From Gemmata sp. (GTDB lineage: Bacteria; Planctomycetota; Planctomycetia; Gemmatales; Gemmataceae): DNA of 64,000 nucleotides. The notes under the pieces were generated by a model. It was given only the letters and a program-made list of their open reading frames with translations. It was not told where the DNA came from and did no database searches. Below are positions 50,641-59,955 of the stretch, piece after piece (position 1 is the stretch's first letter; each line of letters opens with the position of its first letter). Location of the stretch: contig JANWYJ010000071.1 in NCBI GenBank assembly GCA_025055115.1, positions 1 through 64,000 on the forward strand, written 5' to 3'. The translations under genes and the position numbers were made by a program.

Positions 50641-51954
50641 TTAGCGGAAATAGCGGTTGAAAATGTTTTCGAGCATTTCCTGCCGGCCCGACACGTTGGG
50701 CGCAGCATCGCCTTTTTGCAGGATGTAGGCTTCGAGGTCTTCAAAAGTCACGTGGCCATTCTCGATCTGCGCGCCGATGCCGCTATCCCACGAGGCATAG
50801 CGTTGGCGGATGAAGTCGGCCAACAGGCCGTCTTTGCGGATGGCGGCAGCGATTTTCAGGCCGTGGGCGAAGGCATCCATCCCACCGATGTGGGCGTGGA
50901 ACAGATCAACCGGCTCGAAACTTTCCCGGCGTACTTTGGCATCGAAGTTCAACCCGCCGCGGCCCAGGCCGTTTTGGTTCAGCACAATCAGCATGATTTG
51001 TGTCGTTAAGTACAGATCGGTAGGGAATTGATCGGTATCCCAGCCCAAAAGCAGGTCGCCGCGGTTGGCATCGATACTGCCGAGCATGCCGTGGATGCTG
51101 GCGTACATCAGTTCGTGGACCATGGTGTGTTTGGCCAGCGTGGCGTGGTTGGTTTCCACATTGAAGCGGAATTCCTTCTCCAAGCCGTAGCCGCGGAGGA
51201 AGGCCAGGGCGTTGGCGCAGTCGAAATCGTATTGATGGCTGGTCGGTTCGTGGGGTTTGGGTTCGATGAGGAACGTGCCGGTGAAGCCGATTTTCTTTTT
51301 GTACTCCACGGCCATGTGCAGGAACTTGGCGAAGTGATCCAGTTCGCGTTTCATATCGGTGTTCAGCCATGTGACGTAGCCTTCACGCCCCCCCCAGAAG
51401 ACATAGTTCTCGCCGCCCAGTTCTTGGGTCACTTCAAGGGCCTTCTTCACCTGCGCAGCGGCATACGCAAAGACATCTGCATTGCAACTGGTGCTGGCTC
51501 CGTGAACAAACCGCCTGTGGCTGAAGAGATTCGCCGTGCCCCACAGCAGCTTGATGCCCGTTCGCTGTTGCTGCTCCTTCAGCCGCCGAGCCACGATGTC
51601 GAGATTTTTGTTCGTTTCGGCAAGATTAGCTCCTTCGGGGGCAATGTCGCGGTCGTGCCAGCAGTAGTACGGTACCCCGAGTTTCTCCATGAACTCAAAG
51701 GCCACATCGACACGCTTGAGGGCCATGTCGAGCGAATCGGTACCGTCTTCCCACGGACGTATGGCACAGCCCGGGCCAAACGGATCGCCACCCATGCCGC
51801 GGAACGTGTGCCAATAGCACACCGCGAAGCGCAAATGCTCGCGCATGGTTTTACCTTCGACCACTTCCTCCGGGTTGTAGTGGCGGAAGGCGAGGGGGTT
51901 TTTGCTCTCGGGGCCTTCGTAGCTGATCTTGGGAACATCGGGGAAAAATGCCAT
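50641..51954 (-). CDS. xylA: Xylose isomerase
   Basis: XylA interconverts D-xylose and D-xylulose (also glucose/fructose) using two divalent metals. This 437-residue protein has the length of class-II enzymes. Motifs include [13 protein letters not shown] with the catalytic histidine, [35 protein letters not shown] with metal-binding acids, and [13 protein letters not shown] followed by GSIDANRGD. The ATG at 51954 starts [14 protein letters not shown], as in homologues, and has GAGG upstream. The neighbouring aldo/keto reductase is on the same strand. No xylulokinase gene is seen here. Confidence 0.96.
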
Positions 51955-52189
51955 GGCTGGCCTCGCGGTGAAGAAATTCCAGGTGGTGATGAGAGCGTAG
52001 CAGTTCACCCGCCCAGCGGGTAGACAGCCCCGGCCATGAAATACCGCGCAATAATGCCCGTCCGCTTCTCCATCGGATCAGCAATAGCACTGCGCTGCGG
52101 AGCGCTAGCCGGGGCTGGGCCAGCAGCAGGAGGAACCTGGCTGGAGGAACAACCTCCGTGTCTTCGCTTGGTCGCGGCGGGCGGCGGTG

Positions 52190-53653
52190 TCAGCCAGGGG
52201 GTAGCATAGCTGGCTCGCCAATGCCGCGAAATTTCCGCAGAAACACGAGGAATTGTTCCAACAAACTCGCTGGGTCGCCGGCACGGCCGTGGATGGTGAC
52301 GGCGTGACGCGTCAGGTGCAGTTGGCCGCGGAAGCCCGCCAGGGTGATGATGGCTGTGCCCGCATCGCTGGCCACACGCACGTTCACTCCCGCCAGTGGC
52401 TGTTCCTCGATGCGATCGACCCATTCGGCCACATCCACCGGTACTGCGAATTCAAACACCAGTTGGTCGAAGAGTGAACCGAAGACCGTGCGAAAGGGGG
52501 GCGAATGGAACAGTTCCAGGCTGGCCATCCGTGCCAGTTCCCGCCGCCAGATGACCGCGGAGGGTTGTTCGGGGTTCAGGTCCAGCGATACGGTGTACTC
52601 AAAATCCGGGGTGCGGATAAAACCAACTCCGGCGCGGTCGGTGGACACGTCGAGTTCTTTGCGTCTGTAGCCGAAGGCTTCACGGAGACGGGCGAAGGTT
52701 GCGTCTACATCGGCTTGGATGTCGGCGGCACCAATCCGGTGGACGAACTTCCGCGCCCATTCGTTGGCGCGCTCGGGGAGCGTGTGGGTTTTGCGAAAGC
52801 CAGCCAGTTCCTTGACTCGGCCGTGGCTTTCGGCCCGCAGCACGACGCGCTTCAGACGCGCGGTATCCAACCCTTCGGCCGCGGTGCTACGTTGCTGCCG
52901 AAAATCGGCGATCACTGCGGCGCTGAACGTTTCTCCCAACAGTCGGGGTGTTTGCTCGGGGGGTGTCTCATAACTGTGCCGCAGTGTACGTGGGACGGCT
53001 TCGGTCAGGTAGTCGTGCAAGGCGGCAGCGGTGAGTGTACTGTCTGCCCGGCGGCGGCGTCCGCATTGGCCCGCCAGGGCTTGTATGACATGATGCCGCC
53101 AAATCCCGCGGCGCAGCTGCCCCGACTCGAACGACCGCTCGCCGGGTTGGCACGATAGCAGACAGGCGCTGGGATATTTCCCGGTGAAGAGAGCTTCCAG
53201 TTCGCTTCCCACCAATCCCGGCTTCAGTTCAGGGGCTTCAGCTAACGCCGGAAGAGATTCGACATCAAAAAGAAACGTCACCTCCGGGCAGCGGACGCGG
53301 CGTACGGCTGCAACCACCTCGGCGACCGTCATGGCCGTGGCGGCCGGATCGCTGGGGATCGTATCGGCACACACCAGATAACTTGTCTTCGTTTTCAGGT
53401 GGAAGCCACGGGTAGCGATGAAGACCAATAGTGCATCGACCGGCCCCAGAAGTTTCGGCAGCCGCTGCAGGTGGGACTCGATCACGGCTTTGGTGGTGCG
53501 CGTACTGGTGAGGAGCAGGCACTTGGCAGGGTTGTAGCCGGCACCGGGCAACGTGCGGAGCAACTCGGCAGCATCGCTGGTGGCATACGGTAACGGCGGG
53601 CCAAGCTCAAAAAAGTTCTCCACCGCAATCACCACCGCCGCGCGCTGACTCAC
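52190..53653 (-). CDS. Caspase-fold protein with missing catalytic dyad
   Basis: This 487-residue protein has an N-terminal caspase-like (peptidase C14) domain: AAVVIAVENFFELGPPLPYATSDAAELLRTL matches the family opening, and LLVFIATRGFHLKTKTSYLVCADT matches the strand that normally carries SGHG. Here the histidine position is arginine (ATRG). At the second site, TFLFDVESL stands where DACHSG normally sits, so the cysteine is absent. It therefore looks like a pseudo-caspase. The C-terminal part (about 270-487) is a beta-rich domain of unknown family. The start GTG at 53653 has a strong AAGGAGG site 8 bases upstream; the longer in-frame extension overlaps pdp and is ignored. It is divergent from the pdp operon. 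Confidence 0.75.
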   Translation of the reverse strand: MSQRAAVVIAVENFFELGPPLPYATSDAAELLRTLPGAGYNPAKCLLLTSTRTTKAVIESHLQRLPKLLGPVDALLVFIATRGFHLKTKTSYLVCADTIPSDPAATAMTVAEVVAAVRRVRCPEVTFLFDVESLPALAEAPELKPGLVGSELEALFTGKYPSACLLSCQPGERSFESGQLRRGIWRHHVIQALAGQCGRRRRADSTLTAAALHDYLTEAVPRTLRHSYETPPEQTPRLLGETFSAAVIADFRQQRSTAAEGLDTARLKRVVLRAESHGRVKELAGFRKTHTLPERANEWARKFVHRIGAADIQADVDATFARLREAFGYRRKELDVSTDRAGVGFIRTPDFEYTVSLDLNPEQPSAVIWRRELARMASLELFHSPPFRTVFGSLFDQLVFEFAVPVDVAEWVDRIEEQPLAGVNVRVASDAGTAIITLAGFRGQLHLTRHAVTIHGRAGDPASLLEQFLVFLRKFRGIGEPAMLPPG

Positions 53654-53816
53654 CCCATGATCCTCCTTTTTCCCAACCGAAGTACCACAGCCGATACTTC
53701 CAGAATAATAATGACACGAAACCGGCGATCGGCGAAGGTCAGTAGTCGATGGCGATGTCTGGGATTTCTGACGTTCGCACCATGATCGAAAAAAAGGATT
53801 CGATGAGGTGTTCCCG

Positions 53817-55127
53817 ATGCGGCCCCGCGATGTGATTCGCACCAAACGCGACCACGGCGAGTTGTCGCCGGAACAAATCGATGCCTTTGTGGCGGCCGCA
53901 GCGCATCTGGATGGCAGTGGCTGGGAGAGGTACCATCTCACCGCCCTGCTGATGGCGATTTATCTCAATGGCCTATCGCCAGCGGAAACCGCGTACTTGA
54001 CCGTGGCTATGGCCAACTCCGGTCGGCGGCTCGATCTGAGCGATATTGCCGGTCCCAAGGTGGACAAACACAGCAGCGGCGGCGTGGGCGATAAAACCTC
54101 TCTCATTCTCGGCCCGCTGGCGGCGGCTTGCGGGGTGATTGTGCCGATGATGTCGGGCCGTGGTTTGGGGCATACGGGCGGCACACTCGACAAGCTCGAA
54201 GCCATTGCCGGTTTCCGCGTGCGGCTTTCAGAGGAAGAATTCCGTACGGCCTTGCGGCGGGTCGGCCTGGGGATGATCGGTCCGACCGCGGATATGGCCC
54301 CGGCTGACCGCACCCTTTACGCTCTGCGCGATGTCACAGCGACCGTTGAGAGTATACCGCTGATCACCGCGTCGATTCTCAGTAAGAAACTGGCTGAAGG
54401 TATCGATGGCTTGGTAATGGATGTGAAATGTGGGCGGGGGGCTTTTATGCAAACCCGGCCCGAAGCGCAGGCCTTGGCGGCGTCGCTGTTGCGCGTCGGC
54501 ACGGCCAACGGGCTGAGGATGCGGGCGCTGATCACCGCTATGGATGTTCCCCTGGGGTGTGCCGTGGGCCACACGTTGGAAGTGATCGAAGCCATCGAAG
54601 TTCTGAAAAGCCGTGGCCCTCACGATGTCCGTGAATTGTCGATCCTTCTGGCCACCCGGATGGTGGAGTTGGCCGGGCTGGGTGATGCGGCTCAAGCCGA
54701 GCAGAAGGTGCGCGCGGCCCTGGCTTCGGGAGCGGGTCTGGACGTCTTCCGGCGCTGTATCGAACAGCAAGGCGGCGACGCGCGCGTGATCGACGATTAC
54801 CACCGGTTGCCGACCGCGCCGTACACCGCGGCCGTGGTCGCCCCACGCCGCGGCTTCCTAACACAGATGAATGCCCAGGACGTGGGGATCGCCACACTGT
54901 TACTGGGTGGTGGGCGGCAGCGGGCAGACGACACGATCGACCCCGCCGTGGGTATTCTCTGCCGCGCCAAGCCAGGGGAGTTCGTTTCCGCCGGTGCCAC
55001 CATCTACGAAGTTCACTACCGCGACGTGCAGCGCTGGCACGAAGCCCGTGAGCGGTTGGAAGGGTCCTTCACCATCGGTGAAACACCGCCGCCGGACACC
55101 CCGCTAGTGCTCGAGGAACTCGTATGA
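53817..55127 (+). CDS. pdp: Pyrimidine-nucleoside (thymidine) phosphorylase
   Basis: This enzyme phosphorolyses thymidine, uridine or deoxyuridine to the base and (deoxy)ribose-1-phosphate. The 436-residue protein has the family signature SGRGLGHTGGTLDKLEAI and the phosphate-site motif KVDKHSSGGVGDKTSLIL. The C-terminal domain ends ...EVHYRDVQRWHEARERL. Length and motifs fit the Pdp/DeoA family; which of the two cannot be decided. The ATG at 53817 is preceded by GAGG; an in-frame GTG at 53808 would remove that spacing. Its stop overlaps the cdd start by four bases, and upp follows, so it begins a pyrimidine-salvage operon. Confidence 0.93.
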   Translation: MRPRDVIRTKRDHGELSPEQIDAFVAAAAHLDGSGWERYHLTALLMAIYLNGLSPAETAYLTVAMANSGRRLDLSDIAGPKVDKHSSGGVGDKTSLILGPLAAACGVIVPMMSGRGLGHTGGTLDKLEAIAGFRVRLSEEEFRTALRRVGLGMIGPTADMAPADRTLYALRDVTATVESIPLITASILSKKLAEGIDGLVMDVKCGRGAFMQTRPEAQALAASLLRVGTANGLRMRALITAMDVPLGCAVGHTLEVIEAIEVLKSRGPHDVRELSILLATRMVELAGLGDAAQAEQKVRAALASGAGLDVFRRCIEQQGGDARVIDDYHRLPTAPYTAAVVAPRRGFLTQMNAQDVGIATLLLGGGRQRADDTIDPAVGILCRAKPGEFVSAGATIYEVHYRDVQRWHEARERLEGSFTIGETPPPDTPLVLEELV

Positions 55128-55525
55128 CCGATCGACTTCTGGCTGCGGCCCGGGCGGCGCGGACCCAGGCGTTTGCCCCGTACTCGCAGTTCGCCGTCGG
55201 TGCGGCCCTGGAAAGCGCGGATGGCCAAATTTTCCCGGGCTGCAATGTCGAGAGTGCCAGCTATGGCTTGACGATCTGCGCTGAGCGAAACGCGCTTTTC
55301 CGCGCGATTTGTGACGGTGCCCGATCGTTTGTGCGAATCGTGGTGGTGACGGATACGGAAACACCCACGCCCCCTTGCGGTGCGTGTCGGCAGTTGCTGT
55401 GGGAATTCGCTCCGGAGGCCGAAGTCCTGTTGGTCAACCTCCGGGGCGACATGGTTCAGTACACGGTGCGCGAACTGATGCCCGGCGCCTTCGACCGCCA
55501 CCAACTTCCACCGCGACGCCACTAA
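55124..55525 (+). CDS. cdd: Cytidine deaminase
   Basis: This 133-residue homotetrameric-type cytidine deaminase converts cytidine and deoxycytidine to uridine forms. Zinc and proton-shuttle residues are visible in CAERNALFRA (C and E) and PPCGACRQLLWEF (two cysteines). The start ATG overlaps the pdp stop (ATGA), so translation is coupled. Its product is the substrate for the neighbouring phosphorylase. Confidence 0.95.
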   Translation: MTDRLLAAARAARTQAFAPYSQFAVGAALESADGQIFPGCNVESASYGLTICAERNALFRAICDGARSFVRIVVVTDTETPTPPCGACRQLLWEFAPEAEVLLVNLRGDMVQYTVRELMPGAFDRHQLPPRRH

Positions 55526-55574
55526 GAGCTGTCGGCGTAGGCTATCAACTGGAGTGATTGCGGGAGGACACTCG

Positions 55575-56204
55575 ATGCCGGCACCCGTTGCGATTGCCAC
55601 TCATCCGCTCATTCAGCATCAGTTGGCCCGATTGCGGGCGGCCGAGACCCGCCCACCGGAGTTTCGCGCACTGGTCGCGGCGATTGCTCGCGGCTTATTT
55701 TTTGAGGCGACGCGCGAATTACGGCTCGAACCGCTTTCGGTTCGAACCCCGTTGGCGGAAACAACCGGACAGCGCATCGCGGAACGATTGGGGCTGGTCC
55801 CGGTGCTTCGGGCCGGTTTAGGGATGGCCGAAGCCATGCTCGAAATGATGCCCGAGGCCGTGGTCTGGCATCTGGGACTTTACCGCGACCACACCACCCT
55901 CAAACCGGTGACCTACTATAACAAACTGCCGCCGCAACCACCGATGGACGTCGCACTCGTTTTAGACCCGATGCTGGCCACCGGTGGTAGCGCGGTGGCC
56001 GCGATTGACATTCTCAAGAAGGCCGGCACACCGCGGATCATCTTTGTGGGTTTGATCGCGGCTCCGGAGGGCGTGGCCGCCCTGCAAGCCGCTCACCCGG
56101 AGGTGCCTATCGTGCTGGCCGCGCTCGATAGCCATCTCAATGACCGCGGCTATATCGTTCCGGGTTTGGGCGATGCCGGTGATCGGCAATTCGGTACAGC
56201 CTGA
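55575..56204 (+). CDS. upp: Uracil phosphoribosyltransferase
   Basis: This 209-residue enzyme makes UMP from uracil and PRPP. The PRPP-binding loop DPMLATGGSAVAAIDILKKAG and the C-terminal uracil-binding segment YIVPGLGDAGDRQFGT are clear. The ATG at 55575 has GGGAGG 9 bases upstream; the gap after cdd is only 49 bp. With Cdd and Pdp it completes the route cytidine to uridine to uracil to UMP in one operon. Confidence 0.95.
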   Translation: MPAPVAIATHPLIQHQLARLRAAETRPPEFRALVAAIARGLFFEATRELRLEPLSVRTPLAETTGQRIAERLGLVPVLRAGLGMAEAMLEMMPEAVVWHLGLYRDHTTLKPVTYYNKLPPQPPMDVALVLDPMLATGGSAVAAIDILKKAGTPRIIFVGLIAAPEGVAALQAAHPEVPIVLAALDSHLNDRGYIVPGLGDAGDRQFGTA

Positions 56205-58208: not shown

Positions 58209-58736
58209 CTATTTCGCTTTGCGGCGCAGCAGGATGAGAACGACATGCCCTTCACCCTTGCCTTTGAAATCTTGGGGGCGTTCGCCGCCCTCACGGGCAA
58301 AAGCGATGGTCAGCTCGGTGCCGTCGTCGGTTTCTTTCACCTGATAAATGCCGAGAATTTTGGTTTCTTTGGCCCCCGCGTCTTTGGGGCGGATGTCGAT
58401 ATGGCTGGGTTTCTTGGATGGATCGAGGACGAAGAGGGCGTCTTCGGAGCCAGTGCGGTTCTTGATGCGGACGCGCATTTCTCCGTCTTTGATGACGAAC
58501 GATTCGACCTCGTCGCGTTTTTTATCCGGTTGGCCGTTGATCAGGATTTGAACCACTTCGTACTGGCCTTCGAGTTGCTTGGCGGCGTCGTGGGGATCAG
58601 GGGCTGCCGGAGCCATTCCGGCCATCCCAGCGACCAGGATGGCTCCGGCGATGCCGCGCAACCAGGGAACTCCGGAGAGGGTGAGGCATGGATGCTCAGC
58701 CCCGATGGGCACAAGCGGCTTTCGGCGGCAAAACAT
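58209..58736 (-). CDS. TIGR03067-type secreted protein, paralog 1
   Basis: This 175-residue protein has a long N-region and a hydrophobic signal segment (about residues 28-46, GIAGAILVAGMAGMAPAAP). The mature domain follows the planctomycete TIGR03067 layout: LEGQYEVVQILINGQP, FVIKDGEMRVRI, FVLDPSKKPSHIDIRP, KILGIYQVKETDDGTELTIAFA and ERPQDFKGKGEGHVVLILLRR. The fold is probably a lipocalin-like beta barrel. The ATG at 58736 has AGGAG. Two paralogs follow upstream on the same strand. Function unknown. Confidence 0.85.
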   Translation of the reverse strand: MFCRRKPLVPIGAEHPCLTLSGVPWLRGIAGAILVAGMAGMAPAAPDPHDAAKQLEGQYEVVQILINGQPDKKRDEVESFVIKDGEMRVRIKNRTGSEDALFVLDPSKKPSHIDIRPKDAGAKETKILGIYQVKETDDGTELTIAFAREGGERPQDFKGKGEGHVVLILLRRKAK

Positions 58737-58861: not shown

Positions 58862-59341
58862 TCACTTCTCCGCTTTCTTCAGTTGTAGTACCGTCACTTC
58901 GTTATCCGATTTGAATTCTTTGGGCCGTTCACCTTTTTCACTGAATGCTAACGTCAAGATGCCCCCTTCGATCTTGTAGATACCGGGGAAGGTTTTGCCT
59001 TTCTCGGGGCCGTCTTGCGGGGTTACATCAATAGTGGACAGTTTGTCATCGGGAGTCACTTTGATCTTGGCCACTTTTTTATCGTCGGGGCTGAACGACA
59101 GGGTGAATTCGTCGCCGTGAATCACGATGGTGACCGTTTCGAGGAGGGCTTTTTCGGCCACTTTGCCATCGCGTTCGGCGTGGATGAGTTTGTAGGTACC
59201 TTCGAGTTCCTTGAGGCCTTTGGCCGTTTTGTCGGCTTTGTCGATCTTGTCGGTTTGATTGGCTTTCTCGTCGGCCCCACCGGAGACCGTCAGGGCCGCG
59301 ACGACCAGCAGCAGAAAACCACGCACAGCCATGCGGATCAT
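58862..59341 (-). CDS. TIGR03067-type secreted protein, paralog 2
   Basis: This 159-residue protein has a signal peptide (MAVRGFLLLVVAALTVSGGA). Domain motifs parallel those of its neighbours: LKELEGTYKLIHAERDGK, TIVIHGDEFTLSF, TIDVTPQDGPEKGKTFPGIYKIEGGILTLAF and ERPKEFKSDNEVTVLQLKK. A Lys/Asp linker (DKIDKADKTAKG) follows the signal. GGGAG precedes the ATG at 59341. Same strand and spacing as the other two copies, so they may be one transcript. Confidence 0.85.
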   Translation of the reverse strand: MIRMAVRGFLLLVVAALTVSGGADEKANQTDKIDKADKTAKGLKELEGTYKLIHAERDGKVAEKALLETVTIVIHGDEFTLSFSPDDKKVAKIKVTPDDKLSTIDVTPQDGPEKGKTFPGIYKIEGGILTLAFSEKGERPKEFKSDNEVTVLQLKKAEK

Positions 59342-59415: not shown

Positions 59416-59877
59416 TTATTTCACTTGTTTTTTCAAGCGGATGATGAGGACGTTGTCACTGGCTTCAAATTTCGTAGGCCGGTCCTTCTCGGCCCCCATG
59501 TCCGTCGCACAGATGGTGAGAATGCCGTCTTTGAACTCGTAGATGCCGTAGTTGGTTTCGGTCCGGCCATTTTTGGTGGAAGTAATGGTAATATGCCGTG
59601 GGTTTTTGCTGGGATCGATCGTGAACTTGGCCGGGTCGTCTTTGCCTTTGGTCACGGCGATGATTTCGCGGCCTTGAATTTTGATCGTGCGTTCGCTGGC
59701 ATCGACATCTTTGAGCATCTCTTCGGTAATCTTCAGCCCTTTGCCTTCTAACCCGATCAGCACATAGGTGCCGGCCAATTCGTGCAGGGCTTTCTCGTCG
59801 GCTTTTTCATCGGCATATGCCGCCGCCGCGACACCGCCCAGACCGGCCACGAGGGCAAGGAAGTAGAAACAGCGCAT
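59416..59877 (-). CDS. TIGR03067-type secreted protein, paralog 3
   Basis: This 153-residue protein has a signal peptide (MRCFYFLALVAGLGGVAAAAYA). The same domain pattern is present: LHELAGTYVLIGLEGKGLKI, RTIKIQGREIIAV, FTIDPSKNPRHITITSTKNG, NYGIYEFKDGILTICATDMG and RPTKFEASDNVLIIRLKK. The ATG at 59877 has GGAG upstream; an in-frame start at 59952 would overlap the next gene's end region and is not supported. Confidence 0.85.
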   Translation of the reverse strand: MRCFYFLALVAGLGGVAAAAYADEKADEKALHELAGTYVLIGLEGKGLKITEEMLKDVDASERTIKIQGREIIAVTKGKDDPAKFTIDPSKNPRHITITSTKNGRTETNYGIYEFKDGILTICATDMGAEKDRPTKFEASDNVLIIRLKKQVK

Positions 59878-59955
59878 GGGATGTTCTCCGGGGAAAATCC
59901 GTTGGGGATCAGAATAGGGCTTCGGAGCCGTTTTGCGAGGCAGAAGTTCCACCGC

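Follow-up and report, generated by a model that had tools for sequence, protein, structure and literature searches.

A gene on the minus strand of the 64,000-nucleotide stretch of Gemmata sp. DNA analysed here (the window) encodes a protein whose N-terminal half resembles a caspase, with other residues at the two positions expected to hold the catalytic histidine and cysteine. This raises the question of what a caspase fold does once its protease residues are gone: whether the gene is still under selection, whether the catalytic residues have merely moved, and with which cellular function the protein is associated. We approached these points through the sequence and predicted structure of the protein, its relatives in planctomycete genomes and its gene neighbourhood.

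A caspase fold without its catalytic dyad

The gene is an intact ORF of 487 aa (Table 1); its strand had been omitted from the first-pass annotation. An orthologue was present in 19/19 genus genomes searched, the window's own included, with a GTG at the aligned start in every one. Both halves, the caspase-like part and the C-terminal domain (CTD), are found in the 18 complete genus copies, and the 19th, in G015, is split over two contigs. Among the five closest pairs by pS, dN/dS was 0.056, 0.032 and 0.048 (L007, L009 and L012 compared mutually), 0.255 (L011/L014) and 0.082 (L013/L015), and the N-terminal half alone gave 0.043-0.082 in four of these five pairs. Nine other listed pairs reached 0.25-0.49 overall and up to 0.56 in the N-terminal half, and we suspect that saturated dS at high G+C has raised these higher values; all listed values were below 1. 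Both halves are under purifying selection among the closest relatives.

Since all 19 genus genomes carry the gene and dN/dS lies at 0.03-0.08 in four of the five closest pairs, the pseudo-caspase is not a dead gene. The intact copies and low dN/dS bear out the first-pass annotation, which had argued the same from a strong ribosome site, read here as AAGGAGG, and an intact frame. A scan tool detected no sigma-70-like promoter within 51900-53900. A TA(C/G)A(A/C)T element occurs upstream of the gene in 14 of the 18 upstream regions listed, as counted by eye and without a chance control.

Table 1. Positions in the window of the pseudo-caspase gene, its parts and the divergent neighbours
Feature	Positions	Strand	Basis
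Pseudo-caspase gene, 487 aa, GTG start at 53653	52190..53653	-	Intact ORF and genus orthologues
Shine-Dalgarno AAGGAGG of the pseudo-caspase gene	53662..53668	-	Read directly in the sequence
Caspase-fold domain, residues 1-254	52892..53653	-	Pfam, AlphaFold2 model, structure matches
Codon of Arg82, catalytic His position	53408..53410	-	Alignment with dyad-bearing relatives
Codon of Glu132, catalytic Cys position	53258..53260	-	Alignment with dyad-bearing relatives
C-terminal domain (CTD), residues 267-476, predicted TBP-like topology, without Pfam family	52226..52855	-	
Intergenic region between pseudo-caspase gene and deoA, divergent starts	53654..53807	.	
deoA, pyrimidine nucleoside (thymidine) phosphorylase, divergent neighbour	53808..55127	+	Pfam Glycos_transf_3, PYNP_C, Glycos_trans_3N
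cdd, cytidine deaminase	55124..55525	+	
upp, uracil phosphoribosyltransferase	55554..56204	+	

The caspase fold proposed for the N-terminal domain was recovered by sequence as well as by model. Pfam Peptidase_C14 (PF00656) matched with 22.3 bits against a cut-off of 21.4, over residues 4-118 only, and the AlphaFold2 model (full length, mean pLDDT 83.6, pTM 0.58) carries the fold on to about residue 254. Searched against solved structures with Foldseek, the model retrieved MALT1 as top match (E 5.9e-11). In the VIA-align comparison the 50 best rows, among them metacaspase-4, MALT1 and human caspases, had Z 19.4 to 20.8, led by metacaspase-4 (Z 20.8, rmsd 3.0, 222 residues aligned) and followed by MALT1 (20.6) and caspases 7 and 8 (20.6 and 20.5), so that the comparison with metacaspases suggested earlier came out in favour of a caspase-like model. 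By sequence search, the only solved structures found were MALT1 entries at E 0.1 or worse. The model of the window protein shares its fold with the MALT1 paracaspase and metacaspase-4; these two peptidases have a Cys-His pair, and the domains that flank the fold in them are different.

Alignment with dyad-bearing relatives places Arg82, within ATRG (residues 80-83), on the histidine site and Glu132, within DVES (residues 130-133), on the cysteine site, in agreement with the replacements originally reported. Conservation offers no support for a histidine and cysteine relocated within the active site, the finding that would have spoken against dyad loss: Cys95 is present in 34/39 rows of a Gemmataceae clade, yet also in 4/7 rows that keep the true dyad, and His85 is common to only 3/18 full-length genus rows in the alignment. 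The window protein consists of a caspase-fold domain that lacks the His-Cys dyad and, fused to it, a conserved CTD of about 210 residues, and we infer that it cuts no proteins.

The only other C14 domain above the cut-off in the same genome belongs to L128 (G000 contig C94, 28981-29658), whose dyad is intact (SGHG, DACHSG). A further caspase-like protein, L027:3863-6337 (G000 contig C84), has FGRG at the histidine site and DVQYKG at the cysteine site and is fused to PDZ and Peptidase_S41 domains; with a C14 score of 20.5 bits, just below the cut-off, it is possibly another pseudo-caspase of a different architecture.

Dyad states and the C-terminal domain across relatives

Besides the window protein, 87 fetched rows were available, of which 58 were caspase-CTD fusions complete enough to read, 28 carried the CTD alone, as assigned from the length in front of the CTD without a domain search, and one was cut. 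Counts exclude L020, which is cut by a contig end, the truncated L105, L023 as a duplicate of L127, the copies of G015, G024 and G115, which are split, and unfetched matches at class level such as those of G571 and G700. Among the 59 aligned fusions, the window protein included, 7 have the full dyad, 9 retain just the His, 2 just the Cys and 41 neither, so the dyad loss is shared among relatives, as the first-pass annotation had proposed to check. For L136, one of the seven dyad rows, the motif is ACC in place of D-x-C, and its assignment rests on the alignment. On a quick tree with some long branches and a root that is not known, the intact/broken label requires at least 5 changes and the four dyad states 14 changes. 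Some relatives that share the architecture retain an intact dyad, and its state has changed repeatedly on the tree; as a lost dyad is unlikely to be regained, the changes are most naturally read as repeated loss.

A clade of 39 rows, all from Gemmataceae (SH-aLRT 93), has Cys in none and His in two. L109 and L111, also from Gemmataceae, fall outside this clade and group with dyad-bearing rows. In the genome G063 an intact copy, L111, occurs alongside a broken one, L110, and the intact and broken groups may therefore represent ancient paralogues and not the decay of a single gene. L111 (2450-7812) is followed by a gene with a PIN_12 domain, and the ORF upstream of it starts like ParA as judged by eye, which may indicate a mobile or conflict setting. 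Elsewhere, L118 (Tyr-Ser) and L127 (intact dyad) are sister genes; the ORF downstream is common to both, with a single difference within its first 70 letters, and looks like GMP synthase.

In the window genus and its sister genus, Arg occupies the histidine site in 23/23 rows and the cysteine site is Asp in 21 and Glu in 2. Elsewhere in the 39-row clade the sites vary (P, K, Y or A at the histidine site; S, G or R at the cysteine site). Across the whole clade Asp97 and Arg225 are found in 39/39 rows and Arg82 in 30/39. The alignment, which samples few independent substitution events, fits a putative charge pair of Arg with Asp or Glu in place of the dyad. Mean pair identity in the 39-row clade (741 pairs) was 0.45 for the N-domain versus 0.55 for the CTD, and in the 7 dyad-bearing rows (21 pairs) 0.39 versus 0.35. 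These values, from sets that differ in depth, are suggestive of constraint having shifted from the caspase half in intact rows to the CTD in the 39-row clade.

The CTD, which had been noted as a second conserved-looking domain, proved to be conserved across relatives: Leu283, Pro293, Arg331, Pro349, Phe351, Phe391, Asp413, Glu416 and Leu464 are each retained in at least 98% of 88 rows. Its profile was found in 46/95 family genomes, 88/397 class genomes and 11/392 phylum genomes, samples that overlap. The rows with the CTD alone (28/87) include 23 from family code f4 (L120, L123, L124 and L145-L164); these 23 loci, assigned by length, have no widely recurrent neighbour. Pfam returned no CTD match in the window protein and, for the CTD of 11 members, two single-member matches only, at chance level (E 0.064 and 0.18). 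Searches with tblastn in plasmids and phages and a pattern scan of viral contigs gave no CTD match, and a mobile or viral origin of the domain was discarded on these grounds.

The CTD model (pLDDT 84.7, pTM 0.79) shows strand, helix, four strands and helix, twice over. The TATA-binding protein (TBP) has this topology as well. Chains of TBP head the VIA-align list, the best being 1mp9_B (Z 7.6, rmsd 2.8, 88 of 226 residues aligned), a score below the reliability level of 8 that may reflect a common arrangement only. In the Foldseek search of the CTD against pdb no match fell below 0.001, and the first row came from a TFIID complex chain (E 0.0099, prob 0.72, TMq 0.27); in BFVD, six matches passed this threshold, one of which is annotated as a TBP. 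An internal duplication at the sequence level, tried with hhalign, left no signal (probability 0.2%). The charge of the domain is near neutral, with 30 K+R against 27 D+E. The likeness of the predicted CTD to TBP is borderline and serves as a lead.

Pseudo-caspases have been described before. The bacterial pseudo-orthocaspases covered by a 2019 study (PMC6426788), as far as its text was available to us, resemble the window protein in having a p20-type domain without the His-Cys dyad, conservation within lineages and variable C-terminal parts, and the window protein likewise has a p20-like domain with the dyad replaced. Such proteins also lack a p10 domain by sequence; in the window protein the Pfam match ends at residue 118, but the model extends the fold well beyond it, to about residue 254. 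In that part of the study, the common replacements are Tyr-Ser, Tyr-Ala, Phe-Ser, Gln-Cys and His-Ala, and about 90% of the proteins belong to Alphaproteobacteria and Cyanobacteria, where a role in photosynthesis is suspected; 'planctomyc' is absent from its main text. Compared with the forms described there, the window family differs in its Arg with Asp/Glu, its lineage, its CTD and its neighbourhood, although its member L118 does have the Tyr-Ser form. Among the matches listed in the literature search, we recognised none on a caspase with thymidine phosphorylase or on the planctomycete caspase-CTD family.

Divergent linkage to deoA in Gemmataceae

The search for co-occurring genes proposed in the first-pass annotation yielded deoA as a recurrent neighbour in the family. 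In the 39 Gemmataceae genomes with both a CTD gene and deoA, the two lie at most 4 kb apart in 23, representing 11 of 14 genera, and are divergent in all 23; by distance they are directly adjacent in 22 of these, with about 2.7 kb between them in G026. In the remaining 16 genomes, 11 of them from the window genus, the distance exceeds 4 kb or the two genes lie on different contigs, which counts against a functional link. As a control, the other neighbour of the pseudo-caspase, a xylose-isomerase-like gene, adjoins it in 2/42 genomes. For comparison, cdd, the operon partner to be expected for deoA, adjoins it in 25/38 genomes and 7/13 genera, by genomes slightly commoner than the linkage of the CTD gene to deoA. 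In eight genomes deoA keeps the CTD gene and not cdd; in three of these (G007, G078 and G079) deoA runs into or near the contig end. The arrangement recurs where the gene encodes no caspase domain: in G019 and G033, genes with the CTD alone stand divergent to deoA at 102 and 70 bases from match to match, which leaves no room for one. The gene is thus often divergent from deoA in Gemmataceae, even in two genomes where its caspase part is lacking.

Among 95 family genomes, 39 have both CTD and deoA, 7 the CTD only, 21 deoA only and 28 neither (Fisher p 4e-5, confounded by ancestry), and the linkage may be inherited rather than selected. Outside Gemmataceae, no neighbour recurred beyond groups of up to 5 loci. 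A shared operator was sought in genomes in which the two genes are unlinked and set aside, as no 8-base word common to the 11 gene and 13 deoA upstream regions rose above shuffles (best 0.154 versus a mean of 0.12 and a maximum of 0.18 in 100 simple shuffles); this, too, speaks against a functional link. Further along the window, three tandem ORFs lie on the minus strand (58209-58736, 58862-59341 and 59416-59952); by eye, they presumably encode related small secreted proteins.

Possible roles of the protein

The first-pass annotation had placed the protein in a possible stress or defence circuit, and this part of its proposal found no support: the gene is a constant of the genus, no neighbours but those for pyrimidine salvage recur in the family, and the CTD is unmatched in plasmids, phages and viral contigs. 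A related role, as a regulatory pseudo-protease of a conflict or death circuit that binds and restrains a true caspase, as c-FLIP does, or the substrates of one, appears unlikely to us. It could draw on the intact C14 protein on contig C94 of the same genome, on the frequency of inactive caspases in some bacterial conflict systems, where the available part of one study puts about 70% of caspase domains in effector position as inactive (PMC7159879, 2020), and on matches to the PADLOC caspase model (window protein E 0.01; 9/12 members at E up to 1, best 1.7e-11), although such a match by itself shows only a caspase domain. Against it stand the presence of the gene in 19/19 genus genomes, which is not a patchy distribution, the lack of CTD matches in mobile and viral sequences, and the immediate neighbours, none of which we recognised as a defence gene, by inspection outside the PADLOC scan. 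Nor is there an EACC1-type gene 5' of the pseudo-caspase. In the EACC1 two-gene systems, as the part of that study available to us describes them, an adjacent 5' EACC1 gene encodes one membrane helix, and the window has divergent deoA on this side instead (PMC7159879). NCBIfam NF047832, the model for the caspases of these systems, matches each of the 12 scanned members at E up to 1 (best 3.8e-27); the window protein reaches 28.3 bits against a cut-off of 140, and neither its score nor its neighbourhood is that of an EACC1-system caspase.

If only the CTD mattered, the caspase half would be on its way out and tolerated as a fold, which would accord with its lower conservation relative to the CTD in the dead clade and its absence in G019 and G033. 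We hold such a vestigial state to be improbable in view of the low dN/dS of this half in four of the five closest pairs (0.04-0.08), the retention of Asp97, Arg225 and, in most clade rows, Arg82, and the two halves kept together in every complete genus copy. A remaining enzymatic activity, through a different nucleophile or by a different reaction at the altered site, is very improbable: the constancy of the Arg and Asp/Glu pair in 23/23 rows would suit it, but the site varies elsewhere in the same clade, and neither Arg nor Asp/Glu is a usual nucleophile for amide cleavage.

Our preferred explanation, to which we would give about an even chance, is that the caspase part has become a scaffold without proteolytic activity, joined to a functional CTD, and that in Gemmataceae the protein is tied to pyrimidine salvage. 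The CTD would do the work by binding a ligand or nucleic acid through its predicted TBP-like sheet, and the dead caspase domain would provide a scaffold for binding or dimerisation, its Arg82 and Asp/Glu132 forming a putative charge pair where the active site used to be. In Gemmataceae, this module may have come to control pyrimidine-nucleoside salvage (deoA-cdd-upp) or to report on it. The scaffold or sensor role put forward at first for such proteins is plausible. A regulator is conceivable here because, in conserved divergent gene pairs, one gene often encodes a regulator of the other. In the boldest form of this idea, a caspase has turned regulator: a TBP-fold CTD would bind DNA or a nucleotide, the dead half would dimerise or relay a signal, and together they would control the divergent deoA-cdd-upp genes and their own promoter, the caspase half having gone in two genera and the TBP-like part alone being left at the same place. 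We consider this specific form decidedly unlikely.

Inactive caspases are known as such; what is unusual here is the graded series together with the link to deoA. One planctomycete architecture spans an intact dyad, the loss of one residue, the loss of both and the absence of the caspase domain, which opens the path from protease to non-enzyme to direct comparison, and the recurrent divergent deoA neighbour provides a concrete function to test. Altogether, these data suggest that a protease fold has been reused for binding or regulation in this family.
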